In this document: piece by piece, positions 1 to 62,360 of the stretch
Numbering within the stretch: position 1 is the first letter of the stretch
Layout of the letters: every line of letters begins with the position of its first letter
Source of the DNA: Arctopsyche grandis
Lineage: Eukaryota; Arthropoda; Insecta; Trichoptera; Hydropsychidae
DNA length: 64,000 nt
Assembly: GCF_051622035.1 (NCBI RefSeq)
Contig: NC_135360.1
Span: 3,221,501-3,285,500 of the forward strand
Direction: 5' to 3'
Program-made: the position numbers and the translations under genes
Notes under the pieces: model-generated
What the model saw: the letters and a program-made list of their open reading frames with translations, nothing else
Told to the model about the DNA's origin: nothing
Databases searched by the model: none

Positions 1-1245
1 TGAAGTGAATGATTTTAAACAAACGTCACATTTGTGTGGTTTTACACCAGTATGAATTATCAAGTGTTTAAGGAGGTAAGATTTTGAAGTGAATAATTTT
101 AAACAAATGTCGCATTTGTGTGGTTTTACCCAACTATGAATACGCATGTGTTTACGGAGGTCAGTTTTTAAAATGAATGATTTTAAACAAATGTCACATT
201 TGTGTGGTTTTACACCAGTATGAATTATCATGTGTTTATGGAGGTAAGATTTTGAAATGAATAATTTTAAACAAATGTCGCATTTGTGTGATTTTACCCC
301 ACTATGAATACTCATGTGTTTACGGAGGTTAGATTTTGAAGAGAATGATTTTAAACAAATATCACATTTGTGTGGTTTTACACCAGTATGAATTATCATG
401 TGTATAGGAAGGTAAGATTTTGAAGTGAATAATTTTAAACAAATGTCGCATTTGTATGGTTTTACCCCACTATGAATAGTCATGTGTATACGGAGGTCAG
501 ATTTTGAAGTGAATAATTTTAAACAAATGTCGCATTTGTATGGTTTTACCCCACTATGAATACTCATATGTTTACAGAGGTCAGATTTTGAAGTGAATGA
601 TTTTAAACAAACATCACATTTGAACGAAATTTCTCTAGTATGGGATTTTAAATGTCTTGAAAGTGAAGATGTTTGAGCAAACGATTTTAAACAAACATCA
701 CATCTATGTGGCTTTACCCCAGTATGCATATTCATGTGTACATTGAGGTGGGCTTTTGAAGTGAATGATTTTAAACAAATATTACATTTGTGTGGTTTTA
801 CACCAGAATGAATTATCATGTGTTTACGGAGGTAAGATTTTGAAGTGAATAATTTTAAACAAATCTCACATTTATGTAGCTTTACCCCAGTATGAATACT
901 CATATGATCACGGAGACGAGATTTTAAAATGAATGATTTTAAACAAATGTCACATTTGTGAGATTTTACCCCAGTGTGAATATTCATATGTCTACATACC
1001 TGAGATTTTGAAGTGAATGATTTTAAACAAATGTCACATTTGTGAGATTTTACCCCAGTGTGAATATTCATATGTCTACATACCTGAGATTTTGAAGTGA
1101 ATGATTTTAAACAAACGTCACATTTGTGTGGTTTTACACCAGTATGAATTATCAAGTGTTTAAGGAGGTAAGATTTTGAAGTGAATAATTTTAAACAAAT
1201 GTCACATTTGTGTGGTTTTACACCAGTATGAATCTCATCTAAAGT
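1..1245 (-). repeat. 84-bp periodic zinc-finger coding array of gene A
   Basis: About 15 tandem 84-bp units each encode one 28-residue C2H2 finger. Two units at about 940-1100 are almost identical to each other over a full finger. An alternating two-finger pattern recurs between about 1 and 560: a unit with a KHMIIH-type helix end is followed by one with a MTIH or MSIH end. This suggests recent expansion by unequal crossing-over or gene conversion in blocks of one or two fingers. Confidence 0.85.
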
Positions 1246-1889
1246 TTTTCGTAATGGTAATTCGTCTGCTGGAGTGTTAATAATATGTATCGCTTCTGAG
1301 CTGATATCGTCTGAAGTAATTTTTCCTCTGTGTATCTATAAAATAATCCAAATATAATACATAATTATACAATAACATAATTGTACAGGTGAATTTATAT
1401 TTTCGATTGATTGAATGTTTTCTTTGGAATCGTTCGAACGCACTCGAATTCCATTAGCTTACCTCGCCATCGTCTGGGGAACTAGAAATGTTTGGCGGAA
1501 AATGAGCACTCGTTTCATCTTCCCATTTTAAATCTTCCAGCCAAATTTCCTCTGGCTTGATAGCCAAAGACTCGCCGATCTTTACTCTCGACGTTTTGTC
1601 ACTCCGAATACAAGCGTTTCGAAAGCTGTCGAGCAATTCCAAATTATTGACGCACGAAAGGCATATCATTTCTGGCAGATGGTCACCTTTTCTAACCTGC
1701 AAATGACAAAGGTATTGACAATTACGAGGACTAGCGAATAAACAATAGCAATGGTATAAGTGTAATGTTACTAACCGGCAGCTGACAGCAGGTCCAAATG
1801 CGTTGCGCCAAACGCGGTGGATGAGGGTACTCATGGATGGAGACGAAGGAGCCTGCTGGGGCAGACCAGAGACAAAGTCGGCACTCCAT
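1..1889 (-). CDS. ZAD C2H2 zinc-finger gene A (3' end beyond left edge)
   Basis: Probable nuclear DNA-binding transcription factor. Exon 1 is 1889-1776 (38 codons, starts MECRLC, ends CCQLP). Exon 2 is 1696-1463 (78 codons, contains MICLSC). Exon 3 runs from 1335 off the left edge. Introns are phase 0 with GT donors and AG acceptors (donor GTTAGT after 1776, GTAAGC after 1463; acceptors before 1696 and 1335). The ZAD zinc pocket is C3/C6 in exon 1 and the C-X2-C pair in exon 2. Exon 3 opens with IHRGKITSDD, then stays open through about 15 C2H2 fingers spaced 84 bp apart. Fingers are unusually alike, mostly CDICLKSFTSKS with HTGVKPHKC linkers. They differ mainly at helix positions that touch DNA (Y, D, Q, R, H or S at position 3). 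The start is the only ATG giving the family N-terminus. The stop is not in the window, so intactness is unknown. Confidence 0.88.
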
Positions 1890-2479: not shown

Positions 2480-3260
2480 TGTAAGTGAGTCAAAGTAAAA
2501 GTTCAATTAAAGGAAGCAGAATTAACAGATGTATACACAAGGAAAAAAGGCGACACGTATTTATATAATACGTATAAAGAAATTTTTTGGTCACTTTATA
2601 TCAAATTTAGTGAATTATATTTTGACTTTTAAATTTAACCATTTAACTGCTACGATTTTTTTCAAAATCCTAACGAGAAATGCTAAAATTGGTATGCTAA
2701 TTGTATATGTGTAAATTGTTTCATACCCCTGACGTATTGGCGCACAGAAAGTATTCGAATACGACCATTATGACATCAACAACGATCTTTGTTAGCAGTT
2801 TTCATAACAACGATATATCGTTGTTGTAGCAGTTAAAGGGTTAAATACTGATCAAAAAGGATTTTCTGTCACTGAAATTATAATTTTTGACAGCGCGACG
2901 CCCCACTACTGTCCATTCCCACTCTCTTCATGGTCCACACACTGTAATATCTATCCAAACACATCGTAATATATATATTTTTAAGTTTTATTTCATCAAT
3001 ATTTTCACAAAAAAAAAAAAAAAAAAATTCTCAGCAGCCAAAACTTATTTATTTTAAGGGTCAGGTTAGGTTAGGTTAAGTTCAGAAGTCCCAGAGAGTG
3101 GAGGTCGGGGGTGGGATTTAGCCGGTAAAAATCCGGCACTACCCTGCAGTTCGGACTGTAGGCTGTCTTCCGAAGATTCCCACCTCCAGCGCAGCGGAAA
3201 AAAAAGTTGGCCCTATTCATTTAAGACTAGGTTGTTAGGGTCAGTCCGAGGACCGAGGGG
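2480..3260. other. AT-rich intergenic stretch, no gene seen
   Basis: I see no coding exon here. It holds an A run at about 3010-3027, a short run of GGTTAGGTTAGGTTAAG at 3063-3080, and sequence related to the arm of the hairpin near 21687-21752 (AGCAGCCAA followed by the GGTTAGGTTAAG motif). These look like debris of one repeat family. Confidence 0.5.
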
Positions 3261-3263
3261 GAA

Positions 3264-4068
3264 TTAAAAATACGGAAATATTTAAAAACATTTTGTCCAT
3301 CATCCATAAGCTCCTTATACAGTGTCCAAAACTCTCCTTTGGTTTTTCTATTTTTTAACATGGGATGCACATCAAAACGCCTCCGTGCTTTTTTATTGCC
3401 TTCTTGAGCTTCTTCTTTCAACAAAAACGCGATTATACATAATTTTTCGTTCGATAAACACCGAAACATTTTTGCTGACTTGTATTCTGACGTATAGCTA
3501 CGAATGCACGTGTATGCATTCATATTGTAAGTACTCGACAATATATTGTAAGTACTCGACAATATCGAATACAAGCAATATTGCGCCGTATCTTCATGGC
3601 CTGTAATGTATAAGTAAGCCGATTTTGCCTTGCACTCGGCCAAAGTGATGTAAGCGTGACGTGACCGCGACGTGTAGGTAGATAAGAATTCTTCTTCTTT
3701 TTAATGCCTTGTCCGCATCCGGACGTTGGCGACCACCTCGTCGATTATTTGAATATATCCGCATCGGTCTTCGGCGGCTCGAAACAGATCTTCGGCGCTC
3801 ATATCGGTCCACATGCGCATGTTTCGAAGCCAAGATAACTTTTTCCTGCCAATCCATTTTTTCCTTCTATTTTCCCCATGGTTATCAAACGGAGAAATTC
3901 GTATTTTGGACCCCGTATCATGTGTCCGAGGTACTCCATCTTTCTCCGCTTGATGACAGAAACGAGTTCCCTGCCTCTCCCCATCATGCCGAGGACAGAT
4001 AAGAATAGAAATGTAATAAAATGACATATTTTAAACGGATTCGTGCAGTGCTGAAGTATGAACAGACC
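3264..4068 (-). mobile_element. PIF/Harbinger-type element remnant, interrupted by a LINE
   Basis: The segment is closely similar to the complete copy at 36034-36854. It ends at the right with GTATGAACAGACC, matching that copy's terminal repeat; the left end is missing. On the minus strand it encodes a short protein with RRRFDVHPMLKNRK, then GEFWTLYKELMDD and FKYFRIFN. This matches the N-terminal region of PIF/Harbinger nucleases, which typically carry a WVHP-like motif and later FxYFRMS. No catalytic region is present. A LINE fragment (3690-3996) sits inside with a 10-bp duplication. Confidence 0.7.
3690..3996 (-). mobile_element. 5'-truncated non-LTR retrotransposon insertion with TSD
   Basis: Minus-strand reading gives a typical LINE ORF2 C-terminus: RRKMEYLGHMIRGPKYE, then a lysine/arginine-rich WIGRKKLSWLRNMR and LFRAAEDR. 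It ends with an A/AAG-rich tail. The insert is flanked by AGATAAGAAT at 3680-3689 and 3997-4006. The paralogous Harbinger copy near 36760-36785 is uninterrupted at the same place, which confirms the insertion. The reading frame is broken, so this is dead. Confidence 0.8.
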
Positions 4069-4079
4069 TTTAGGGTGTA

Positions 4080-4480
4080 AAAACCAAATTGAAGGAGCGC
4101 GATGAACAAAGACCCACATTCGCAAGCGACTTTACTTTTAACTTCTAATTTCTAATGTTAAGCTCTGCACGTCATTTACTTAGAGCTTAACGGAGCTAAA
4201 ATAGAGCAGTACTTTTCCTGGATGGAAAGTAATGCTGTAAAATTTTGCGATGTTCCAATACGCCTTCAACGTGTTGTTAGCAATTTCAATAGTTGGGAAC
4301 ATTTAGATCATTTAGAAGGTTTAGCCCATCATTTTTTTTTATAATAGCCCGTCATTTTATTACGTCTTCTACGTCTTCCTCATCGTCCCTTCAGTTGGCA
4401 GCAATGCCAATGGTTAGGTTGGCATCCTGCTGTAAATAATTAAATTTGTAACGAACGAGTTTCCGCGGGCTCTCACGATG
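4080..4480. other. Intergenic, nothing recognised
   Basis: No exon, long open frame or clear repeat was recognised. Composition is AT-rich with a T run near 4332-4340. Confidence 0.4.
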
Positions 4481-4489
4481 GGAGGCCAG

Positions 4490-4683
4490 ATTCGAAGCAC
4501 TCGTCACAAAGTAACTAAAATCACTATAACGAAACATCTGGCAGCCGAAAACTCCATCATACTAACGATAGCTTGAGTGTCAAATATTGTGGATTCGCGA
4601 TTTTCATGGCAAAAATTGTTTTTGTGACCATCGCAATGCATCGCAATGTGACGAATAATCCAATTACTGGGCTCTCTGCCTGG
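4490..4683 (-). mobile_element. GGTTCGGTGATTAC-type MITE, degraded copy
   Basis: Carries the family core in this orientation: CATCTGGCAGCCGAAAA, then TCCATCATACTAACGA, then GCGATTTTCATGGCAAAAA, ending ATAATCCAATTAC. Matching copies with clean ends are at 45335-45525, 50165-50336 and 59516-59719. Termini here have mutated and I could not define a duplication. Confidence 0.65.
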
Positions 4684-4689
4684 GTGTTG

Positions 4690-5575
4690 CCATTCGAAAA
4701 AACTGGCAACCACTACCAACCGACGCACACTGGTTGAAATTGATAATGTATGTGTGCAAAAATCCAAAAAAAAGTAGATTTCAATCCCAATAATTGTTGC
4801 ATTTCTCAGTATGGAGAAAAAAAGAGGTTCCTGAGAAAGCATAATTTCTACGAGTATGTCTGCTCAATAAATAAAATACATATCGCTCATAAAAAAAGAT
4901 TTTGTGACGGCAATATTTGTCACCTGAATTAGTCTCGTTTTAAACGTTAAAATGAACGCACTGCTTTCAAAGTTTTTAAGTGATTTAAAACTCCGGAGTT
5001 TTCGTTTACAGGTATGTACTATTTCTTTGCACAACTTAAGTTTAATATTCATTGAGTCATTTTTATCAATAATTTTAGATATTTTGTATTTTATTTAGCC
5101 AAAACTTTCCATGTCCGCATACATCCAAGCTGGCATATATTAATTATACATTAAAGTATAAAACTCATACAAAATTATTTAAAAAAAATTGCAATGTCGT
5201 AAAATAAAACTATTCAAAGAAATTTAATAAAATGTTTATTATTTGAAACCACTAGTTCCATATAAAATTATTGAAACGCGATTCAAAAACGTGCAATTCA
5301 CATTCAAACATAAATGAAAGACTTAAAGCAGTTTATATATATTTTATTGGTCATATAAATTAGACGGTTGCTTTTGTTTAATTTTAGTATTTTATAATTT
5401 ATTGAACATCACATCATATTGTATCGAACTCAGGATCGTCTTTCGAACGAATCGAGCATTCTGTTGTTCCAAAACTGCGTAAGTAGTAAAAGAAATTACT
5501 AGAATCAGCATTTTAGAAGTTTCATTAGTTGAATGTATATAATTAGCTGCTTAGGGCGGTTCATTGTGAGCGATC
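4690..5575. other. AT-rich spacer
   Basis: No supported gene. Short open frames here have no family resemblance. It separates the Harbinger/MITE debris from the decayed finger tail of gene B. Confidence 0.4.
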
Positions 5576-5579
5576 AAGA

Positions 5580-6385
5580 GTAAAATCATTTACTGTAAGG
5601 TGAGATTTTTCAGATGATTCTAAACAAACTTCACATTTGTGTGGCTTTTCATTCCCCATTGTGAATACGCATTTGCCTACTAAGGAGAAATTTTGTAGCG
5701 AATGATTTTGGGCAAATGATACATTTCTACAGTTTTTCTGCAGAGTGGGATTTCATATAAGTCAGCAGTTTGGCTTAACGGTAGCTTATATATTGAGCAC
5801 CACTGTGATCGATGGTTCGACTCGTCAAACTGCTGGTTAGATTTGGGGGTTTTGTGACCCCAAATCGATCGTTTCTCTATCAGAGTTTGCCAATTTTATC
5901 TGATCATTGTTGAAACGGTTCCTGAAAATTGGTAATAGATCATTTCCTGCTGTCACAAAAATCTGTGTGTATAATTTGTAGAAATTATGCACAGAAATCT
6001 GAAATCTATAGATGTCTCTATAATTTCGTGTTTATTATGTGTATAAAAATTGTAATAATAATTGTGCACAAAATCTAAAAATAATCCATAGATGTCTCTA
6101 TGATTATTATTTCTGTACTTGATTAATTATTGTATTCGATGTTTATTCAACGTACTGTATACGTTGTCTGATCATTGTCGTACACTCGTCGCATTGGAGC
6201 GATCTGTAATGACGAGTGTACATTGATTGTAATAAAAATAAAAATAAAATATACCTTAAAGTAAAGCAATATCTACAACTGAATGATTTTGAACAAACTT
6301 CACATTTGTGTGGCTTTACTCCAGTATGCACATTAATATGTGTACCGAATTGAAATTTTCAAAGTAACGATTTTAAGCAAATGTT
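5580..6385 (-). pseudogene. Decayed zinc-finger tail of gene B, interrupted by a SINE
   Basis: Beyond the stop of gene B at 6386, minus-strand finger relics continue: HTGVKPHKCEVCSKSF near 6290-6330, and fragments around 5610-5755 whose plus strand still reads TTCACATTTGTGTGGC and GAATGATTTTGGGC. The relics are in several frames and are separated by unrelated AT-rich sequence. A SINE-like segment lies at 5765-5945. Gene B evidently once had a longer array. Confidence 0.7.
5765..5950 (+). repeat. tRNA-derived SINE copy
   Basis: The head carries an A-box-like TAGCTTATATATTGAGC and a B-box-like ATGGTTCGACTCG. A conserved body follows: TTTGTGACCCCAAATCGATCGTTTC, then TCAGAGTTTGCCAAT and a GAAACGGTTCC motif. 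The same body occurs at 28040-28190, 31735-31850 (minus), 8720-9130 (minus), 51835-53065 (minus, interrupted) and 55985-56260. Confidence 0.65.
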
Positions 6386-7566
6386 TCATTTGTGAGGCTT
6401 TACGCCTTTATGAATCTGCATGTGTCCACGAAGGCAACTTTTTGAAGAGAATAATTTTAAGCAAAACTCGCATTGGGGCAACTTTAACTTAATATGAAGT
6501 TTCATGTGTACATCCAAATATTGTTTCCTTTTTACTGATATTGAACAAATATCACATTTGAACGATTTTTCTTCAGAGTGACATTCCTTATGTTTAGTAA
6601 GGGCAAATTTGTGAAAGAATGATTTTAAACAAATGTCACATTTGTATGGCCTAACCCCAGTATGAATACTCGTGTGAACAATGAGACTAAATTTACGAGA
6701 AAATAATTTTGAACAAAAATCACATTTGAACGGTTCCCCCTCAAAGTGACATTTCAAATGTCTCTTGAGGAAATCTTTATGAGCGAATGATTTTAAACAA
6801 ATGTCACATTTGTGTGGCTTGGCCCCGGTATGATCCGTCATGTGTACAACGAGGCTGGATTTGTAAGTAAATGACTTTTGACAGATATCACATTTGAGCA
6901 GCTTTTTCTCAGTGTGAACGTTCATGTGTAATCGCAGGTTATATTTCATAGCGTAAGATTTTGAACAAACGTCACAATTGTACCGCTTTTTTCGAGTATT
7001 AGTATTAATTTTCCCCTCATGTATCTAAAACATAAATCAAATATATAATTTTACGTGTAGCATTTTCATATATGTCAATTAAAATTTTCGATTAATTGAA
7101 TTTTTTGCTTAAAATTGTTCAAAGCAACTCGAATCCCATTTACTTACTTCGCCATCGTCTTGTGGACTAGAAATGTTGGGTGGCAAATTAGTATTCGACT
7201 CATCTTTCCATATTAAATCATCTAGCATTACCTCCTCCGGCTTGACATTCAAAGACCCGTATAATTTAACCCTTGACGTTTCGTCACTCCGAAGACATGC
7301 GTTTCGAAAGCTGTTGAGCAATTCCAGATTGTTGACACACGAATGGCATATCATATCTGTCAGATGGTCATCATTATTAGCCTGCAAATGAGAAAGGTAT
7401 TGACGATTACGAGGTCTAGCGAATTAACAATAGCAATAGTAACCTAACTGACCCGCAGCTGACAGCAGGTCCAAATGAGTTGCTTCAAACGCGGTAGATG
7501 AGGGTCGTCATGGATGGAGATGAAGGACCCTGCCGGAGCAGAGCAGAGACAAAGTCTGCACTCCAT
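6386..7566 (-). CDS. ZAD C2H2 zinc-finger gene B, array cut by nonsense
   Basis: Exon 1 is 7566-7453 (38 codons, MECRLCLCSAPAGSF through CCQLR). Exon 2 is 7381-7148 (78 codons, MICHSC zinc pair). Exon 3 is 7024-6386. Predicted length is about 328 residues with 7 fingers, from YNCDVCSKS to PQCEFCLKL. All introns are phase 0; the donor after 7453 is GTCAGT and that after 7148 is GTAAGT. Exon 2 starts ANNDDHL where paralogues have VRKGDHL, so one basic surface patch of the ZAD is altered. Translation stops at KPHK because the codon for the first zinc cysteine of the next finger is TGA. The result is a clean stop at a finger boundary, with relics beyond. It may still make a functional shorter protein. 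The locus and its 5' flank are a segmental duplicate of D and E. Confidence 0.87.
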
Positions 7567-9199: not shown

Positions 9200-10340
9200 C
9201 ATAATACAAAAATTATAATATTGATTTCAATTCCTTGAATGGTAAAATGATGGTGAAAATAAAATATAAATAAAACATTTTAATATTTAAAGTAGTATTT
9301 ATTTAAATTATAACTATTGTTTTAAAATACAAAAACACATTATTTATTTCTCAATGGGGCCCTGCTACACAGTCAATACGGATCACAATTCACAGGCGGG
9401 TTTTGAAATATCAATATTTTCGTCAAACAGGTCGTAAATTCAGCACCTCAGTGGCTGCCATATACATATAAATTCGCTCACCAGTTCAATAAAAACAAAT
9501 TAAGCTTTGGAAAAACAAAGTAAAATTCAGTTTAACAAAAAAAATGAGATTATGGATATGTTGCAACCCGAGATATCGGCCATAAAACCATCGGTTGGTC
9601 AGCGCTTCGCCGGTAAGCATTCACTTCCTCCCCGGCTGCCGAAATAAACAGTTGTGCATTACCAACACAATCGTCCCACACGTCCTACCCTCATAGACAC
9701 AGATTTTTTATTTATTAAGAATTTTTTGTTATTATTAGGATTCCATAATGACGGACATGTCTCGTAGGACAGAATAAATTGATGCAATTCCATGCCCGAC
9801 ACGGCCTATCACACATCCTAAAATTTAGTGTGACCAGTTTTGGTGTGACGGCTGATCACGCGTGACCGATCTAGAGCGACCGGTTGTCCTGTGACCGGTT
9901 CACAATAATTGACTAGTAATCACCGAACCCCTGAAATATCGTCGACATCGTTTGTAATTTATGCCACGACGTCTGGTTTCGTGGATTTGAAAACATTTTG
10001 ATACACCGCCATATTATCATAATTTCATATGCATACATATGTATATACATGTTTTAATTTTTCCAGATCCACATTCTTACAAGTATGTTGTAAATAATCC
10101 GTGTTTTGTGCCGAATTGGCGTTTCTCTCACATCCGAATATACTCAGGGCTTTGCGTATGCAATTCACTATCATTTGGATCCACAAAGTTGTCTTGGTGA
10201 ACCACAAATGTATACTGACATGACGGCTATGTTAGATTTTACATAAAATAATAATAGAAGCTACTCTAGAATTTTAACAAAAAAAATCCTTAAAATATAT
10301 GACCCAGGGCTTTTAATTAACGAGATGTTTTTTTTACATA
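9200..10340. other. Intergenic with one foldback right arm
   Basis: No gene seen. A right arm of the foldback family lies at about 9831-9929 (TGTGACCAGTTTTGGTGTGACG, ending AATCACCGAACC) without its left partner. The remainder is AT-rich and unremarkable. Confidence 0.5.
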
Positions 10341-10922
<582 letters not shown>

Positions 10923-10989
10923 GAGTGTCAGGTATTATTCAAATATATTCAACCGTACATTTGCATGTATGTACATACATACATATGTA

Positions 10990-11145
<156 letters not shown>

Positions 11146-14650: not shown

Positions 14651-15319
14651 TGTTCCGACCAAGTCTTCATGGTCAGCTTTCGTGGCGTTACGACCAAAGG
14701 AGCCGTTTTGGAGGGAGATCGGCGCCGAGCGCGCGTCCCCGCCTGCTATTTCGTTTTCCGCGTCGGTCGAGTGAACATCTCTGTTCGCTACCGAGTTGGT
14801 TCCCACCACCGAGTCCCGATCAGCTCAGCCTTGATCGGCAGACGATACTGGAAGTACAGCTTCAGTATACGTCCGGTGAGAAGTGAGGAATTCCTGGTCT
14901 CTCTTCGTCGAAGTCAGATCACGTAGCCACGTGGTTGAGTGAGGTTATCATAACCTCTTGAACACGTGCGCGCTAATTTCAAGTCGGACTCCCCCCCCCC
15001 CCCCCTTTTTTCTGTCCCCCCTGCTTGATATCTGTATATACATATATATATAAAATACAGTCACCATACAAACAGAATTATAACCTGTTTTCATTACTAT
15101 TCAATTTCCCGCCTTTGTCCCGTATCACCCTCACTTACGCACACTGTACGAGAGAGAGAGAGATATACATCGAGCCGAGCCGACAGCAGCAGAGACCAGA
15201 CCGCAGACGACGACCTGTAGATCCCTTGGAGGAAACCAGCCCCGCCCACGCTTACCACGAGCTTCTACGAAACCGACTTCCGGGGTGCTCTCGAGTTGAA
15301 CATCCCTGGAGTCTGTACA
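14651..15319 (+). repeat. BEL/Pao 5' LTR
   Basis: 669 bp, TG...CA ends. It contains a poly-C run near 14989-15005, and AATAC-rich sequence at 15030-15060. Near-identical to the 3' LTR. Confidence 0.95.
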
Positions 15320-15321
15320 TT

Positions 15322-15339
15322 TGGTCCTTCGAAAGAGCC
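15322..15339 (+). promoter_or_regulatory. BEL/Pao primer-binding site
   Basis: TGGTCCTTCGAAAGAGCC lies 2 bp after the 5' LTR. The TGG start is complementary to the CCA tail of a tRNA, as expected for a minus-strand primer site. I do not assign the tRNA. Confidence 0.7.
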
Positions 15340-15470
15340 GGATTTCTTCCAGAGCTGGTCTGTCAACGTCGTCTAATCTAGGTTGGTCGTAATTAGCATT
15401 TTTCTGTTGTTGTTGTGATTTATGGTCGCCATTTTGTTTCTTTTCCCGTGTCCATTGTTTATTTTTTGTC

Positions 15471-17768
15471 GTGTCCAAAATGGAAGCACTTCGGAATACG
15501 CGGAAAAGCATTCGCGCTCGGTTAACGAGAAATGCGAACCATTTGGAGGGGGATCTGAGTATTTCCATGCTCCAAATCAGACTCGAGATAATTAAACCTC
15601 TGTTGTCTGATTTCGAATCGGTCCAAGCTCAGATTGACGAGCTGGACGAAGCGGAGGCTCGGGCCTCCGAGTCCGTCATTGACGAGTTCGAGACGGAATA
15701 CTTAATCGCCCTCGAACGATGTATGGAAATGCTCAGATTGCGGGAGCTGCAACTGAGCGCGTCGCCGGTAGGTGGCGCTGCCGTCACGATTTCCGCTGTA
15801 TCGCAATCAAATTCGGCAATAAAATTGCCCCGTTTGGAGTTGCCCACCTTCGAAGGCAACGTCCAAAATTGGGCCCTTTTCTCACAACGCTTCTTGGTCG
15901 CTATGGCCGGCGAAACTTCTCAACTCGCCCGTTTCCAATACTTGTTGGCAGTCCTAAAAGGAGAACCCAATCGCGTAGTCAGTGGCTTAGAGTTATCTGA
16001 TGATTCCTTCTCCCGCGCTTGGTCCATTCTGGAGCAGCGCTACAACAATAAAAAAATTGTTGTTCAGTCCCACATTCGCGCAATATTGGACGCGGAACAA
16101 ATTGCGTCCAATAGTTACGCAAGTTTGCATCGCTGCATAGACGATTTTAACATGCACGTCCGTGCACTGGCCAACTTGGGCGTTCCGGTCGACACTTGGG
16201 ACGACATTTTGGTCATGTGCATCACTAGGAAGCTCGATCGATACACGGTTCGACAATGGGAGCTTCAAGCGCCAAAACATGAGGAGTGCACATTCCACAA
16301 ACTCATCGAATTTCTGACGCTTCAGTGCCAATCGATGGCAAATGCCGACTTCGTCTTAAAAGGCGAGTCGAATCCTCGACCAAGAACCATTACGGATCCG
16401 AAGGCAGCAGTTCTGCATGTGAGGAGGGAACGCCCCTCCTGCATCAGTTGCAGCGGAAGTCATTCTCTGCTAGCCTGTCCATCATTCCGCCAAATGAGCG
16501 GTGATGAGCGTAGGTCGAACGCCATAAAACGTCGACTATGTCTCAACTGCTTGAGACCAGGGCACATAGTTCACGCGTGCCAAACAAAGCAGAGATGCTT
16601 CAAATGCGGTCATGCCCATCACACCATGTTGCATGACTCAACTCCATACCAAACTTCGCCTTCAAATAAGGCCAAACATTATCGGAGCCCCAAGAAATCA
16701 GAGAACGCCAAACCCGTAAAATCATCGTTGGTTTTACACTCGGTGAGACGCGTATCGCCTTCTCACGCCCGAACTGTCCTGTTATCCACCGTGGAAGTAC
16801 AAGTTCGCGGCGGAGATGGGCGTTCGCACAAGGTTCGAGCATTGTTAGATAACGGCTCCGAACTCAACCTCATCTCTGAAGACTTAAGAAGGCGACTCGC
16901 CTTAAAGTCGAAAAGGATGGACGTCAACCTGGTAGGAATAGGTTCAAATAGGACGTCCATTACTAGTGGCGCGGTAATTCGAATTCTACCGCGCATCCCC
17001 AATCAGGGCTCCAGTGTTGATCTCGATTGCGCAATCATGCCCGAGATCGCGAATCAACTTCCATCGCGCAACGTGTCCGAGATTCGGAGCCATTTGCCGC
17101 TTCATCTCCCACTTGCCGATCCGTCTTTCGATATTCCCGGTACAGTGGATATGGTGATAGGCAGCGACACCTATCATGCGATATTACGCAATGGCAAACG
17201 TACCATTTTAGTTCCCTCCAAGTCACGCGGTGACAGAGGAGGACGCATCGCGATGATGAATACAGCTTTCGGCTGGATATTGGGCGGCTCTCTAGAAGCG
17301 CCCACAGTTTCAAGCGATTCTCGGAATTGCCATCACACAACGGGTCGTGATCCGTTATCTTTTTTTGGCGCGAGACGTCCAGTCAAGACAGTTACGCGTC
17401 CCCTGGACGAATCGCGTATTTCCGCGGTACGAAGATTCCGCTTGCCGAAGCGCAATGTACCCGCGCCCTTTAACCCTCACATCTTTCGACCTTCCCAACC
17501 CAGCTCCCATAACTCCTGGCCAGTTCCTAGTTGGCGCACCACTAGTTGCGCAACAGCAGGAGGATCTGGTCGATCAGCCCGGAGCGAGGGTGCTACCACA
17601 CCAGCACATGCAGCAGCGGCCCCTGGCAGACAGGGGCACAGGAGTAGGTCCTACTACTCCTCCATCAGCAACACCAAGCGAGTCCGGCGAGTAGCTCGAC
17701 TGCCAGTCGAGCAACAGTCGGTTAATTTGTGCAACGGAGTGGCGAACGTTCATAACGTCCCACATTAA
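15471..17768 (+). pseudogene. BEL/Pao gag-protease polyprotein with deleted pol
   Basis: A 765-codon frame. Residues 1-300 match the BEL/Pao gag region (DUF1759-type: IKLPRLELPTFEG, then WALFSQRF). A zinc knuckle CLNCLRPGHIVHAC and a second CFKCGHAHHTMLH follow near residues 345-385. The aspartic protease motif is LLDNGSELNLIS (DNG where DSG/DTG is usual), with FGWILGG downstream. After about residue 605 the frame loses homology. Around 17490-17560 the neighbouring plus frame encodes PITPGQFLVGAPL, the end-of-integrase signature of this superfamily. So a large deletion, with a frame change, joined protease to the integrase tail. The product could still assemble as Gag, but would need enzymes from a complete relative. 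The start ATG at 15480 (EALRNTRKSIRARL) is an equally good choice. Confidence 0.85.
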
Positions 17769-18191
17769 AGTTGGCGCGTTGTTTGTATCTGTGTTGTGGA
17801 TTCAGTTTATGTGTTTTAACTTAAGTTTTTGAGTTGCTTTTCTTTTATGCTTCTCTTGTTGGTTTGATTGGTGCTTTGTAATAGAGCTATCAGGATAGAT
17901 TGGGACATATAACGATTGAACAATATTGTTACCTAGCATTGGTGTTGGTTATTTGTTGGTGTTTTGGTTGTTTGTTTGTCTATTTTTTGTTTGTTTCTTG
18001 CCGGCTTAGTCAGCTGCTTATGTAGGATGGGAAATTGACGATGGACTAATGTTATTTTGTTTGCTGACTGGGTTATTTTGTTGTGTCGTTTTTTTGTTAT
18101 TTTTTTGCTTATTTGCTTGGTTTTTGTGTATTTCATTAGTCGCTTGTGCACCATTAATTCTTATTTGTTTTGGAATTCGATCCTCTGACTT

Positions 18192-18206
18192 CCAACGGGG
18201 GGAGTA
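18192..18206 (+). promoter_or_regulatory. BEL/Pao polypurine tract
   Basis: CCAACGGGGGGAGTA lies immediately 5' of the 3' LTR. It is the expected plus-strand primer region for the element. Confidence 0.6.
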
Positions 18207-18872
18207 TGTTCCGACCAAGTCTTCATGGTCAGCTTTCGTGGCGTTACGACCAAAGGAGCCGTTTTGGAGGGAGATCGGCGCCGAGCGCGCGTCCCCGCCT
18301 GCTATTTCGTTTTCCGCGTCGGTCGAGTGAACATCTCTGTTCGCTACCGAGTTGGTTCCCACCACCGAGTCCCGATCAGCTCAGCCTTGATCGGCAGACG
18401 ATACTGGAAGTACAGCTTCAGTATACGTCCGGTGAGAAGTGAGGAATTCCTGGTCTCTCTTCGTCGAAGTCAGATCACGTAGCCACGTGGTTGAGTGAGG
18501 TTATCATAACCTCTTGAACACGTGCGCGCTAATTTCAAGTCGGACTCCCCCCCCCCCCTTTTTTCTGTCCCCCCTGCTTGATATCTGTATGTACATATAT
18601 ATATAAAATACAGTCACCATACAAACAGAATTATAACCTGTTTTCATTACTATTCAATTTCCCGCCTTTGTCCCGTATCACCCTCACTTACGCACACTGT
18701 ACGAGAGAGAGAGAGATATACATCGAGCCGAGCGGACAGCAGCAGAGACCAGACCGCAGACGACGACCTGTAGATCCCTTGGAGGAAACCAGCCCCGCCC
18801 ACGCTTACCACGAGCTTCTACGAAACCGACTTCCGGGGTGCTCTCGAGTTGAACATCCCTGGAGTCTGTACA
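18207..18872 (+). repeat. BEL/Pao 3' LTR
   Basis: 666 bp, begins TGTTCCGACC, ends TGTACA, followed by GATGT. Differs from the 5' LTR by the poly-C length near 18547-18560, one base near 18588 and one near 18733. Confidence 0.95.
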
Positions 18873-18877
18873 GATGT

Positions 18878-19829
18878 CATCCTGTTGGGTTCGGTAATGC
18901 CCGTAAGCCAGTTATCGCGTGAGTGAAATTTCGTGCGCGTAACACCGTTGAGTGAAAGGTCCGAGAGCCAGTTGTCGTGAGACCGTAGCTATATGGTTAG
19001 ATCATCATCTCGAGGGTTTCAATGCTTACGGCCCCGCGGAGATAGAGGGCCATAAATCGACAAAATAATTGTTCAACTTAAAACACGTTTTGCGGGAATG
19101 TAGGTCGTGAAAAACTATTTTGGTTTTCTTGAACCTAGGAAAATTATTAATATACCAAGTACAGTTGTTTGGAGGGTGATTTTTCAGAAGTACATAAATG
19201 TATATACCGAATTCATGCTATTTTTACAAGCCTCATGTTAGGTTGTTACTCTTCCGGTAACTGTGGCTAGTGTAGAAAGAACATTCAATAAATTAAAAAT
19301 AATTAAAGATTACAAAAAAAATTCGATCGGTCCAACCAGACTCAATGGCTACGTCCACACATTTTCGAATTTTCCATATCCAGTTCCCATATTGCAACCT
19401 GTGATCGTTATGAAACGTTAAACATAATATGTACATCAATATACAGTGATAAAAATAAACATAAAACGTAATAGTTATTAAATATAATAGATGATCTTAA
19501 AAACAATACAAGTAATGATAAAACCCATGTCAAAATAACAATTTTAGCCAGTTTCATACCTATGCACCGGAAGACAAAAAGGATTAGTAAAAACCTTTTT
19601 AGAGATAGTGCACTTAAGGGAAAAACCACAAGTTCCTTTTTTACGGGATATGATAGGTAAAGTACATTCAGTCTTAGTTCAACTTTCGTTTAAAACATTC
19701 ATCCGTTATTTGTTTCATTTCATTCCACATTTATCCGGCCTGTTTTTTTTTTATTGATTCGCGACTATTGAACTTATCTACTTGACTTCCCGCTACACAT
19801 CTACAACCTGGACCGCCCTTGGATTCATC
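18878..19829. other. Older LTR continuation and hAT debris
   Basis: 18878-19060 continues the interrupted older LTR region. At about 19250-19345 the plus strand keeps a hAT C-terminal fragment (PVTVASVERTFNKLKIIKDY, then SIGPTRLNG). The rest to 19829 is AT-rich with no gene. TTTCCATATCCAGTTCCC near 19373 is the arm of the hairpin family found at 36874 and 37511. Confidence 0.5.
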
Positions 19830-35508: not shown

Positions 35509-36871
35509 TGTAGGAATCTAGCACAACTTGTGCTATTACGAATCAAAATCAGTGATCTCATCCTCGATCCTGTACAAACACGCATAACTCAAGGGCGACG
35601 ACCCCTTCGACCATCTCAGAAGAAAGAATTCATCGCTCGATCGTAAAAACGAACAAAACCCAACAGTGATGTAATCAGGATACCCAAACACGTAAAAGTC
35701 AACGCGTGGCACATGCCCGCATTCTCAAACGAACGACGTCCTGACGCCGACCCCATAAACACACGCCTCGAAAGTAGGTCAACACGTGTGCCCAACACAC
35801 GTGACCTGGAAACGAAGACAAAGCATTTGCGCGCGGCACGCTCCAACCCAGAACGTATATAAAGCGACGCAGCAGCTCCAGACGCCAGATCACTCTGGAG
35901 TTCAACCAGATCACTTCACCGAAGCTCAACCTCTTCGTACATACAATAACCATTGTAACAATTGAACAACAATAAACGATCCTCTTTCAAACTCAACTGA
36001 GATTCCATAGGCCGGGAAACGGTCGAAACCTTAAAAGGTCTGTTCATACCTAGTCAGCACGTACCGACTTCAGCAGGTATCCGGCCGTACGAAAAGTATT
36101 CTTTGGTACATTTTGTATGGGTATATTCATATCAACCGTCACGTTTACGTCACGGCAGGCTTACAGCAGTACCCGACATTTCCTGTTCATACCTTACAGC
36201 AACATCCGTCAACGTATCGTATCCGTTTTTTTGGCCATCGTGGAAATATACACGCGAATTACGTGCCATGAGTCTGCCGCTTTGCTGTTTTGGACCAATT
36301 ATCGATAGTGACAGTTGACAGCTGTTCAATATTTCGATATGGTTTTGGCGCAAATATTTAAAAAAAATTTAAATTTTTTACGGAAATATTTAAAAAAATT
36401 TTGTCCATCATCCACAAGCTCCTTATACAGTGTCCAAAACTCTCCTTCGGTTTTTCTATTTTTTAACATGGGATGCACATCAAAACGCCTCCGTGCTTTT
36501 TTGTTGCCTTCTTGAGCTTCTTCTTCCAACAACAGCGCGATTATACATAATTTTTCGTTCAATAAACGTCGAAACATTTTTGCTGACTTGTATTCTGACG
36601 CGTAGCTACGAATGCACGTGTATGCATTCATATTGTAAGTACTCGACAATACGACGTAAGCAATATTGCGCCGCATCGTCATGGCCTATAATGTATAAGT
36701 AAGCCGATTTTACCTTGCACTCGGCCAAATTGCTGTAAGCGTGACGTGACCGCGACGTGTAGGTAGATATTAATAGAAATGTAATAAAATGACATATTTG
36801 AAACGGAGTCGTGCAGTGCTGAAGCCGTGCAGTGCTGTTAAGTATGAACAGACCTTAACCCGTCCTATACA
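35509..36871 (+). mobile_element. Solo LTR interrupted by a Harbinger element
   Basis: Starts TGTAGGAATCTAGCAC; contains GTATATAAAGCGACG near 35857 (TATA-like) and AATAAACGATCCTCTTTC near 35970. At GAAACCTTA (36033) it is broken by the 36034-36854 element and resumes as TTAACCCGTCCTATACA. Restoring the site gives the usual LTR end seen at 29274-29545. Both LTR halves together are about 540 bp. Confidence 0.75.
36034..36854 (-). mobile_element. PIF/Harbinger-type non-autonomous element, TTA TSD
   Basis: Inverted ends GGTCTGTTCATAC (36037-36049) and GTATGAACAGACC (36842-36854), with TTA on both sides (36031-36033, 36855-36857). TTA is the target type used by PIF/Harbinger. Minus strand at 36326-36682 encodes RRRFDVHPMLKNRK, GEFWTLYKELVDD and FKYFRKKF, the N-terminal piece of a Harbinger nuclease. 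The DDE core is absent. The host is the LTR at 35509. Confidence 0.85.
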
Positions 36872-41039: not shown

Positions 41040-42470
41040 TTATACTTGACTCTAAAATTTATAATTAATTTATATGTACTGTGTGCGAAGAGACACCTCA
41101 CAGAGGTGTCTCTTCGCACCTCGCAGGAATGCATCCATGTTTTTAGCAGACCTGATGCACTCAGGGAGGGCATTATACATGAGCACACCCCTGTGAAAAA
41201 CACCCCCAGCCGTTTTATTCTTTCTTACTCTACCTACAACTAGTTTGTCCTTATTTCTAGTATAAAAACTATGTTTATCTCTATTCCTTATTATATAATC
41301 ATCAAAATACTTAGGTAATAACTTATGATCTAACTTATAAACAAAATACAATGTACTAATATTTAGACTAATTCTAATACTCATCCATCCTAATTCATCT
41401 AACATACTTCCAATACTCTTAAATCTACTCACATTCAAAATACCTCTCATAGCTTTATTCTGTATTTTTTGCATTTTTTCTAAATCTTGGCCACTAAACA
41501 AATTAAGCACAGTGGCACAATAAACCACATGTGGCAAGACAATTGAATTAAACACTAAAATTTTACTTTTTTTACTTAAAATATTTCTTAATCTACATAA
41601 TACACCAACTTTTCTAGCCATTTTTTTATTATATAGTCAGCGTGCATTTTAAAATTTAGTCCTGAATCTATGTATACACCTAAGTATTTTATATTTTCAA
41701 CTTTTTCAATTAACTTATCATCAATTCTAATTTCATTCAATATATTTTTATTTTTACCATTCAACCACATCATTTTTGTTTTATTCACATTCAACTTTAA
41801 TTTATTTTCACACAACCAGTCATTCACATAATTTAATTCTATATTTAAAATCTCAGACATTACATCAACATTCTTTCCAATTATATATATCAATGTATCA
41901 TCTGCAAACAAATGTATTTTACACATCTTAATTATCTTAACAATATCATTTATATATTATATAAATAATAAGGGTCCCAATTTGGACCCTTGCAGCACTC
42001 CATGAGGTGTTACAAATTCAGAGGATAACACCTTATCAATTTTTACTATTTGCCTTCTATTATTTAAGTATGATTGAAGCCACTTTAATACTATACCATT
42101 TATTCCTAACTTATATAATTTTTGTAATAAAATATTCCTATCTACTGTCTCGAACGCTCGCTTAAAATCTAGAAAAACTGCCCCAACAACCATGCTAGAT
42201 TCATCCATCGCTTCCATCCAATCAGCAACCACCAATTTGATAGCGGTTTCTGTTGAATGTTTCACTCTAAATCCAGACTGTTCCACAACCAAACAATCAT
42301 TTATACTAATGAACTCTTTCAATTGAATCATAACGATTTCCTCCAGCATCTTCTCAACAATTGGTAACATATTGATGGGCCTCATTTCACTGGCTTTATG
42401 TGTGCCAGTACAATAGTAGACACCTTCCATGCATCCGGGACGGATCCCACTTCTAACGATTCATTTATTA
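41040..42470 (-). mobile_element. Non-LTR retrotransposon (jockey/CR1-like), 5'-truncated
   Basis: Minus-strand reverse transcriptase in at least three frame pieces. 42430-41957: RPINMLPIVEKMLEEI, EQSGFRVKHSTETA, VFLDFKRAFETVD, then GVLQGSKLGPLLFI. 41926-41588: IHLFADDTLIY (catalytic box, F in place of the usual Y) and NKTKMMW. 41621-41070: the thumb and C-terminal region (VYCATVLNLF, RGILNVSRF), ending RGAKRHLCEVSLRTQYI. Order and motifs fit the jockey/CR1 group. The endonuclease and ORF1 are absent. Frame breaks make it inactive, though motif preservation suggests moderate age. Confidence 0.85.
41083..41119. repeat. Perfect 17-bp hairpin at the LINE 3' coding end
   Basis: GTGCGAAGAGACACCTC, loop ACA, GAGGTGTCTCTTCGCAC. 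It lies inside the last codons of the LINE frame (AKRHLCEVSLRT), so coding and structure coincide. Confidence 0.85.
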
Positions 42471-59915: not shown

Positions 59916-60370
59916 ATGGAGTGCAGACTGTGCCTTTGCTCTGCCCCACAAGAAACTTTCGTCTCCATCTATGGCGATCCACATCCACTGCGTTTGGTGG
60001 AACTCATTCGGACCTGCTGTCGGTTGCAGGTCAGTTACACCCAACTCATTGCCGCAAGTAATTCATTAGTCTTCGCGATCGTCACTCCCTTTCTCATTTG
60101 CAGGTTAAGAGAGATGACAAGCTGCCAGATATGATATGCCATTCGTGTGCCAACAACCTGGAACTGCTCGATAGCTTTCGAAACGCTTGTGTCCGGAATG
60201 AAGAAATTTCGAGGATGAGTTTGGGCGAGTTTTCGAATGTCAAGACGGAGGAAGTTTTGCTGGAAGACTTAATATGGAAAGATGAATCGACCAACATTTC
60301 TATTCCACCGAGCAATGACAAAGTAAGTAAATTTGATTCGGATCCAAACAAAACATTGATTGAGCCGTAA
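59916..60370 (+). CDS. ZAD gene I, no finger exon found
   Basis: Exon 1 is 59916-60029 (MECRLCLCSAPQETF to CCRLQ, donor GTCAGT). Exon 2 is 60104-60322 (73 codons, VKRDDKLPDMICHSC, donor GTAAGT). Both ZAD zinc pairs are intact, and the leader GTTTGTGCTTCTCTTGCCG precedes the ATG. Reading through the exon 2 donor adds KVSKFDSDPNKTLIEP, then stops at 60370, giving a ZAD-only product of about 126 residues. No finger array occurs between here and 64000. Instead a 2.65-kb hAT composite (60579-63228) begins 209 bp later. Either the finger exon lies beyond the window, was lost, or the locus makes a stand-alone ZAD protein that could pair with other ZAD factors. Confidence 0.75.
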
Positions 60371-61189: not shown

Positions 61190-62360
61190 CAACGACATCC
61201 TGATTTTTTAATCGGCTGCAATTGTGCTATATTTTTAAAGTGATTTAAAGTTTAATAGTCTTCGGTGGAAAGAATTAAAAGCAAATTATCCGCCGGAATT
61301 GATCCCACCACAAACAACCGCTCAAATTCCGGTGACAAACGGAAATTTAGTTCACGTGTAGACAGAAAGATTGTGGGAATGGTAACCAGGAATCGATTTG
61401 TTACAAACAAATCCATTCGAGAAGAAATGGAAGTGGACGGGATCAAGATTTCGGAGCGAACAGTCCAACGACGGCTCGCTGAAGCTGGACTTCGTGCAAG
61501 GCGACCAGCAAAAAAAAACCAATGCTGACCCAAAAAATGCGGAAATCACGTATGAGTTGGGCCAAGCAACATCAAAACGTCACTTTAGATGATTGGAAGA
61601 TGGTTAATTATTTTTAACAAAATTATTGTGAGATTATTTTAAATTGACAAAAATAATTAGTATGTTCGCTAATTTTTTGGTACATTTCTCTGATGAATCC
61701 TCGATCCGGATGACAACGGAGAACCACCAGTTCGTTCGGAGAAGAGTGGGGGAAAGGTACAAAGAGGGGTGTACACAAAAAACCAGGAAGCATCCCCCAT
61801 TAATCATGGTATGGGCCTCAATAAGCATTGAAGGTCCGGGTCCCCTCTATTTTATAAATGGGACCATGAACAAAGAACAATACATAAAGGTATTAAGAGA
61901 TACTTTCTTACCCTCAATGCAAGTTAAAATAAATAATGGTGATAATTGGCACTTCATGCAAGATAATGCTCACTGCCACGCGGCCATATTTGTTAAAAAA
62001 AAATGATGTCTGACCACCAAATTCCTCTTCTTCAATGGCCAGGCAATTCTCCCGATTTGAATCCAATAGAACGTTTGGCATGTCCTAAAATGTAAAATTA
62101 ATAAGCTCCCGTGTTCCAATATATTCATTTTAAAACAAAATATCCTTTCAGTGTGGCAGGGAGACCCTGATATTAAAAAAACCATAATAGCTTGCATTGA
62201 GAGTATGCCTAAGAGAGTATCTCTTTGCCTAAAAAATAAAGGTGGCATCACTAAATATTTGTATTTGTTTTTAATTTGTAAACCCACTTCTGATAATATA
62301 CTAGTGTACGTAAAATTTATGAAATTTGCGAAGTGTCCCTAACACTTTGGCCGGGGACTG
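61190..62360 (+). pseudogene. Tc1-type transposase, broken
   Basis: 61265-61528 encodes the paired-like DNA-binding region (KIVGMVTRNRFVTNKSIREE, ISERTVQRRLAEAGL). After frame breaks, 61644-62006 gives the first catalytic region (VHFSDESSIRM) and the second (FMQDNAHCHAA). LLQWPGNSPDLNPIE follows near 62030, in a shifted frame, completing a D,D34E-type triad. The right end is CACTTTGGCCGGGGACTG before TA at 62361. The left terminal repeat is absent. Several frameshifts make it inactive. Confidence 0.85.

Follow-up and report, generated by a model that had tools for sequence, protein, structure and literature searches.

Block-copied fingers and fast-changing DNA-contact residues in a large ZAD zinc-finger family of Arctopsyche grandis

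The question raised by this locus is whether a zinc-finger gene lying across the edge of a 64,000-nucleotide stretch of the Arctopsyche grandis genome (the window, C6:3221501-3285500) belongs among those genes in which the residues that read DNA are reshaped by selection. An earlier note made from the sequence had described the fingers of this gene, referred to here as gene A, as homogenised except at the DNA-contact positions, and had likened them to the PRDM9 and KRAB zinc-finger arrays where concerted evolution and selection alter specificity. Here we combine the window with the genomic region of gene A itself (L009), which was used to complete the gene, and with related arrays from the same genome, all of our family data coming from one 475.7-Mb assembly of 189 contigs.

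Gene A is predicted to have three exons on the reverse strand. Exon 1 (1776..1889) holds the presumed start codon and the first half of a ZAD and ends in a phase 0 GTTAGT donor, and exon 2 (1463..1696) encodes the remaining half of the ZAD with a short linker and ends in a GTAAGC donor; both were positioned by tblastn using queries of 38 and 78 amino acids, respectively, which were the exons themselves. Exon 3, the finger exon, is a single open frame truncated by the window edge (1..1335) which continues beyond it to C6:3220271 (L009 3771), giving a total of 854 codons as judged from the open frames. Phase 0 is kept across exons 1–3, with the donors and acceptors read by eye and predicted from sequence. 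The earlier note had proposed obtaining the rest of the gene, and its completion from the same genome gives a predicted gene A of 38 + 78 + 854 codons with 29 fingers, to which additional exons may yet belong.

The joined exons 1 and 2 (116 amino acids) match the zf-AD domain PF07776 over residues 3–73 with 50.2 bits (cut-off 28), and the top PDB sequence match of the ZAD is a weak one to 7pok (E 0.12). With tandem C2H2 fingers placed C-terminally to this domain in the predicted exons, gene A falls among the ZAD-C2H2 (zf-AD) transcription-factor genes, which form a very large, clustered family in this genome. A Pfam scan of exons 1–2 and of the stretch of exon 3 inside the window gave no KRAB box and no PR/SET domain, and the remainder of exon 3 outside the window, which was read rather than scanned, consists of fingers only. 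Ten of the fingers have ZNF568 as their best PDB match by sequence, and PRDM9 fingers are also among the PDB matches. A short array of 32-bp units with GGTCACAC motifs lies upstream of exon 1 (2145-2238).

Inside the window the finger exon carries 14 complete C2H2 fingers and part of a fifteenth at an exact spacing of 84 bp, and as DNA it was reported by Tandem Repeats Finder as a tandem array of 14.7 copies in the window with 82% matches (1..1233). Fingers 1–13 form the first copy of a 1,092-bp block (115..1206, reverse strand) with zero mismatches at an offset of 1,092 bp, the second copy (fingers 14–26) begins at position 114 and exits the window, and the array ends with fingers 27–29. The head-to-tail duplication is mismatch-free over L009 6203-5072, which corresponds to window 1203-72; positions 1093-1203 are identical to positions 1-111, and finger identity at a lag of 13 is 0.961 (16 pairs). 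This duplication is known from one assembly and may be an assembly error. On a smaller scale, the twin fingers 2 (1122-1060) and 3 (1038-976), at 976..1122 on the reverse strand, differ at 1 of 84 bases, in agreement with the earlier observation that two neighbouring fingers are almost identical.

Copying of fingers is also seen across the ZAD family, where 25 of 51 arrays carry a copied run of at least two fingers, and where 434 of 781 fingers have their nearest relative within their own array (2.1% would be expected by chance). These two results indicate that the arrays turn over by block duplication. We also sought an array-specific homogenisation of silent sites in the framework of gene A and did not find it: the third-position distance is 0.330 on average to other arrays and 0.233 to the nearest of them (L052), and the distance of 0.250 within the gene is no smaller than the latter. 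As silent sites are no closer within the gene than to the nearest array, ongoing gene-specific conversion is unsupported, and the concerted evolution suggested for gene A therefore stands as block copying (13 fingers in gene A, and copied runs in about half of the arrays) but not as silent-site homogenisation.

The variability of the helices in gene A was assessed with fingers 1–13 and 27–29, leaving out the second block copy. Helix position 3 takes the residues Y, D, Q, H, S, R and N (the last of these having been missed earlier) and position 6 takes K, R, I, V and D, so that both positions are as variable as had been claimed. The view that variation marks the contact positions holds for these two, with entropies of 2.60 and 1.95 bits, respectively, but not for positions -1 and 2, which reach no more than 1.06 and 0.99 bits, and no codon is more variable than position 5 (2.73 bits). 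Helix position 5 is not a main base-contact position. Similarly, the frameworks are indeed alike in protein sequence, but with a framework pS of 0.38 the silent sites are incompletely homogenised.

Nonsynonymous diversity (pN) in gene A is 0.364 at positions -1, 2, 3 and 6 compared to 0.135 in the framework, and the equality of contact and framework rates, which the earlier note had named as the result that would overturn its claim, is thereby refuted. Contact variation above that of the framework is expected in any C2H2 array, so it is synonymous change against which the contacts have to be judged. By this measure gene A alone has a contact pN/pS of 1.21 (bootstrap 0.96–1.55), and its sister fingers have a contact N/S of 2.41 (0.85–4.56, 7 pairs at most 12 nt apart); as both intervals include 1, relaxed constraint could account for gene A alone, and we rejected the proposition that it shows selection by itself.

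The wider family is both expanded and clustered: the 64-kb window has nine pairs of ZAD exons, and the genome yields at least 150 matches to zf-AD and at least 195 to the gene A fingers (the odorant-receptor family 7tm_6 has 57 matches there, as suits an insect genome). The ninth exon pair (59916-60313, forward strand) is not followed inside the window by any array of at least three fingers and may be a truncated gene; the frame that follows it (61632-62006) has a DDE_3 match below the cut-off (21.9 of 28.6 bits). An RVT_1 reverse-transcriptase fragment (59 bits) is found between ZAD genes at 41957-42460 on the reverse strand, and a retroelement-like stretch at 14977-18922 includes a frame matching DUF1759 (102.7 bits) between two other frames, 14977-15381 and 18533-18922, which are near-identical by eye and are perhaps long terminal repeats. 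The window also contains an AT dinucleotide repeat of ~800 bp (10338-11144, 92% matches) and two reverse-strand frames, 3227-3700 and 36326-36685, that look alike by eye and are perhaps copies of one mobile element; the first of these was scanned and has no Pfam match.

Arrays for the family-level analysis were collected in two sets, the first from 20 regions of 10 kb around high-ranking gene A matches plus the window (34 arrays, 123 pairs of sister fingers) and the second from 20 further stretches fetched later (22 arrays, 77 pairs). Together these comprise 56 arrays, 44 of which yielded sister pairs, and 200 disjoint pairs; both sets were drawn from the best gene A matches and hence are not a random sample of the family. 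Arrays of fewer than five fingers were excluded from the first set, and those of fewer than seven from the array-wise pN/pS, third-position distance and copied-run analyses, and identical fingers in one array were counted once. We left out of the counts L021 (a copy of L020), the partial gene A of the window (kept as L009), and L029–L031. The ZAD regions of L020 and L021 and of L029 and L030, on contig C9, are 99.96% identical over 9,036 and 2,667 bp and represent either very recent segmental duplications or assembly duplicates, and such near-identical gene copies are of no use for dN/dS. Arrays in the family reach 40 fingers, and among the paralogous genes on C9 the main arrays have 14, 16, 19, 21 and 28 fingers. 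Another region, L032 (G000:C1:36084329-36085669), appears to be a nuclear mitochondrial insert with long ND2, COX1 and COX2 frames in the mitochondrial code.

Because saturation had to be avoided, we compared recent sister fingers, pairing each finger with its nearest relative in its own array, using each finger once and allowing at most 6 nt between the two (this threshold was set before the second set was fetched, with versions using 2, 3, 4 and 10 nt added later). Over all 200 pairs the contact nonsynonymous rate at -1, 2, 3 and 6 is 2.66 times the overall synonymous rate (2.06–3.46), which is the diversifying selection at contacts among recent copies looked for in a KRAB-type family. The first set gave a ratio of 3.51 (2.60–5.01), or 2.53 (1.78–3.68) without the C9 group, with each contact position singly above 1 and with values of 0.35, 0.81 and 1.23 for positions 1, 4 and 5 and 0.79 for the framework. 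The later-fetched set gave 1.80 (1.21–2.64), and 2.79 (1.30–5.59) for pairs at most 3 nt apart; taken one by one, positions 3 and 6 have intervals here that contain 1, and position 5 is at 1.55. When the 28 finger codons were ranked in the pooled set, positions -1, 6, 2 and 3 were the fastest four, followed by codon 18 (1.89), codon 1 (1.53) and helix position 5 (1.37), and codons 22, 21, 23 and 8 were likewise above 1 outside the contacts. A family-wide single-use pairing (221 pairs from 764 unique fingers, 152 of these pairs joining fingers of the same array) with resampling of whole arrays gave 2.10 (1.60–2.74), and 2.67 (1.79–4.03) for pairs at most 2 nt apart, with positions 1, 4 and 5 at 0.34, 0.54 and 1.33 and the framework at 0.70. 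In recent fingers of this family the four contact positions change at about two to three times the synonymous rate, and the framework taken together stays below that rate across the family.

The signal comes from many arrays. Contact nonsynonymous rates lie above pS in 36 of the 44 arrays with pairs and below it in 6, and among the arrays of at least seven fingers in the first set contact pN exceeds pS in 28 of 29, with a lower bound above 1 in 24. The strongest arrays are on contig C9 (L015, L016, L018, L020 and L023), where pS in the main arrays is 0.05–0.11 and the ratios are about 5 to 10.5. In the 91 distinct C9 fingers, both Cys codons, the Lys at codon 5 and both His codons are invariant even at silent sites; positions -1, 2, 3 and 6 carry 12, 9, 14 and 9 different codons, respectively, and position 5 is serine AGT in 80 fingers, unlike in gene A. 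The claim that selection reshapes specificity is thus upheld by the family as a whole and not by the gene for which it was made.

The alternative which survives best, though we consider it improbable, is that of relaxed constraint only, in which the fold holds the framework and the helix surface drifts freely with no positive selection involved. This would fit gene A, with its ratio of 1.21 and variable position 5, and most of the six tested among the seven neighbouring arrays in the window, which have ratios of 0.91–1.34 and a lower bound above 1 in two cases only, at pS values (0.52–0.69) that are near saturation. However, drift alone should leave nonsynonymous change at or below synonymous change, and neither the pooled ratio nor the lower array-resampled one (2.10), with intervals that both lie above 1, conforms to this; furthermore, helix position 1 stays at 0.34. 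Relaxed constraint is therefore disfavoured as an account of the family.

It is also unlikely that the contact differences were produced by gene-conversion shuffling, with old helix variants moved between homogenised fingers and no new mutations selected. Block copying is common in the family, the same helix codons recur across the C9 arrays, and more than one contact codon differs in 37 of the 200 sister pairs, all of which might be expected from such shuffling. Conversion tracts should nonetheless alter several contact codons together, and this is not the usual pattern, as 81 of the 118 pairs with a contact difference differ at a single contact codon (the other 82 pairs have none), and a single-base change accounts for 149 of 165 differing contact codons. 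The retention of helix variants amid silent-site homogenisation would, we infer, itself require selection. On the basis of these single-codon and single-base differences, conversion import was rejected as the main source of the contact differences.

Localised mutation, in which the helix codons or their CpG sites mutate faster, seems to us very improbable. CpG changes make up 11 of 47 nonsynonymous differences at position -1, and in the C9 all-pairs table pS is high at positions 2 (0.353) and 3 (0.439), although this is perhaps an artefact of path counting between codons that differ by several steps. If the helix mutated faster, its silent sites should change more as well, but in the sister pairs synonymous change at the contacts (12.5 over 494.5 sites) is below that of the framework (97.0 over 2448.8 sites), and the +4 leucine codon, which sits between contacts, shows zero synonymous change in the 91 C9 fingers. 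Only 16 of 170 contact changes involve CpG, and 101 of the 170 are transversions, whereas transitions make up 85 of 122 synonymous changes. Hypermutation or CpG decay was consequently rejected as the main cause, given the low silent rate at the contacts and the small CpG share.

A role like that of PRDM9, with gene A or a relative placing meiotic recombination, is hardly to be expected, since although the long minisatellite-like array, similar frameworks, variable contacts and manner of finger evolution resemble PRDM9 in kind, the gene A model has a ZAD and fingers with no PR/SET or KRAB match in the Pfam-scanned parts, and the selection signal is spread over many genes rather than one. By its domain architecture, with a ZAD, gene A is of neither the PRDM9 nor the KRAB type to which the earlier note likened it.

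We return to block copying with selection on the contact residues, and compare it with systems already described. Gene A shares the ZAD, the C-terminal tandem C2H2 fingers and membership of a large clustered family with insect ZAD-ZNF genes such as Drosophila Oddjob, Nicknack and Kipferl, and PMC7655104 describes the ZAD-ZNF family in the same terms, as a large and clustered one combining ZAD and C2H2 domains. The family examined here differs from the described insect ZAD-ZNFs in the size of its arrays, which reaches 40 fingers, and in their block duplications. It also differs in where selection falls, which is on the finger contacts here but mainly in the linker, and not primarily in the C2H2 region, in Drosophila ZAD-ZNFs according to PMC7655104, although the C2H2 regions of CG2712 and CG7386 nonetheless have p below 0.05 in a table of that paper.

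In the way its fingers evolve, the family resembles vertebrate KRAB and poly-zinc-finger genes, in which selection is also concentrated at the nucleotide-contact helix residues. According to PMC2604467, positive selection in expanded vertebrate poly-zinc-finger paralogues falls on -1, 3 and 6 and more rarely on 2 and 5, and the Drosophila and Anopheles expansions gave no evidence of it. Compared to KRAB genes, the present family has a ZAD and no KRAB, and position 2 keeps pace with -1, 3 and 6. The present genome thus differs in emphasis from both of these papers. Within the literature searched, which was only partly covered, we came across no description of selection on the contact residues of insect ZAD arrays.

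Through the in-frame duplication of 84-bp units, thirteen of them together, the finger exon of gene A has grown to 29 fingers. We propose that block copying of this sort would supply spare fingers, and that selection would then retune the bases which the copied fingers read. The ZAD family would in this manner serve as a renewable DNA-recognition repertoire, working like the vertebrate KRAB zinc-finger proteins, and might direct chromatin silencing to repeats by way of the ZAD and the proteins that partner it. We regard the evolutionary half of this explanation, the block copying of fingers and the retuning of their contacts by selection, as very probable, and the explanation overall as likely, with the silencing role being less likely than not. 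The ZAD-C2H2 proteins found here are most likely an insect counterpart of the KRAB zinc-finger proteins. PMC9531945 describes fly ZAD proteins that act in heterochromatin and in the definition of piRNA clusters, and suggests from the Kipferl study that an arms race with transposons may drive ZAD diversification; a role for the present family in silencing repeats is a tentative suggestion, made by analogy.

One periodic array in our collection bears on what such targets might look like. L012 has 40 recognised fingers (3272-6715) derived mostly from a four-finger unit, and in a run of 21 consecutive fingers each shares at least 97.5% identity with the one four places along; the unit has the contacts QSNQ-HSHQ-RYSS-RTDV and is repeated six times consecutively inside a 1,326-codon frame. 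As the array is itself periodic, we predict that it should prefer DNA with a 12-bp period and, if this is true, the 13-finger block of gene A would read a 39-bp period. A search of the genome with the predicted L012 target (three units with the 12-bp period) returned 0 matches with up to 3 mismatches allowed, a result that carries little weight because the recognition code used was rough. The furthest-reaching version of the proposal, with the ZAD family as a full analogue of the KRAB system, copied in blocks and retuned residue by residue in conflict with repeats, and with satellite DNA and the finger minisatellites co-evolving, seems to us unlikely.

A signal that falls foremost on the four DNA-contact residues suggests that in at least one insect lineage ZAD arrays serve as DNA readers that change fast, in a manner familiar chiefly from the genome-defence and recombination genes of vertebrates, and the A. 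grandis genome offers dozens of recent finger copies in which this can be tested.
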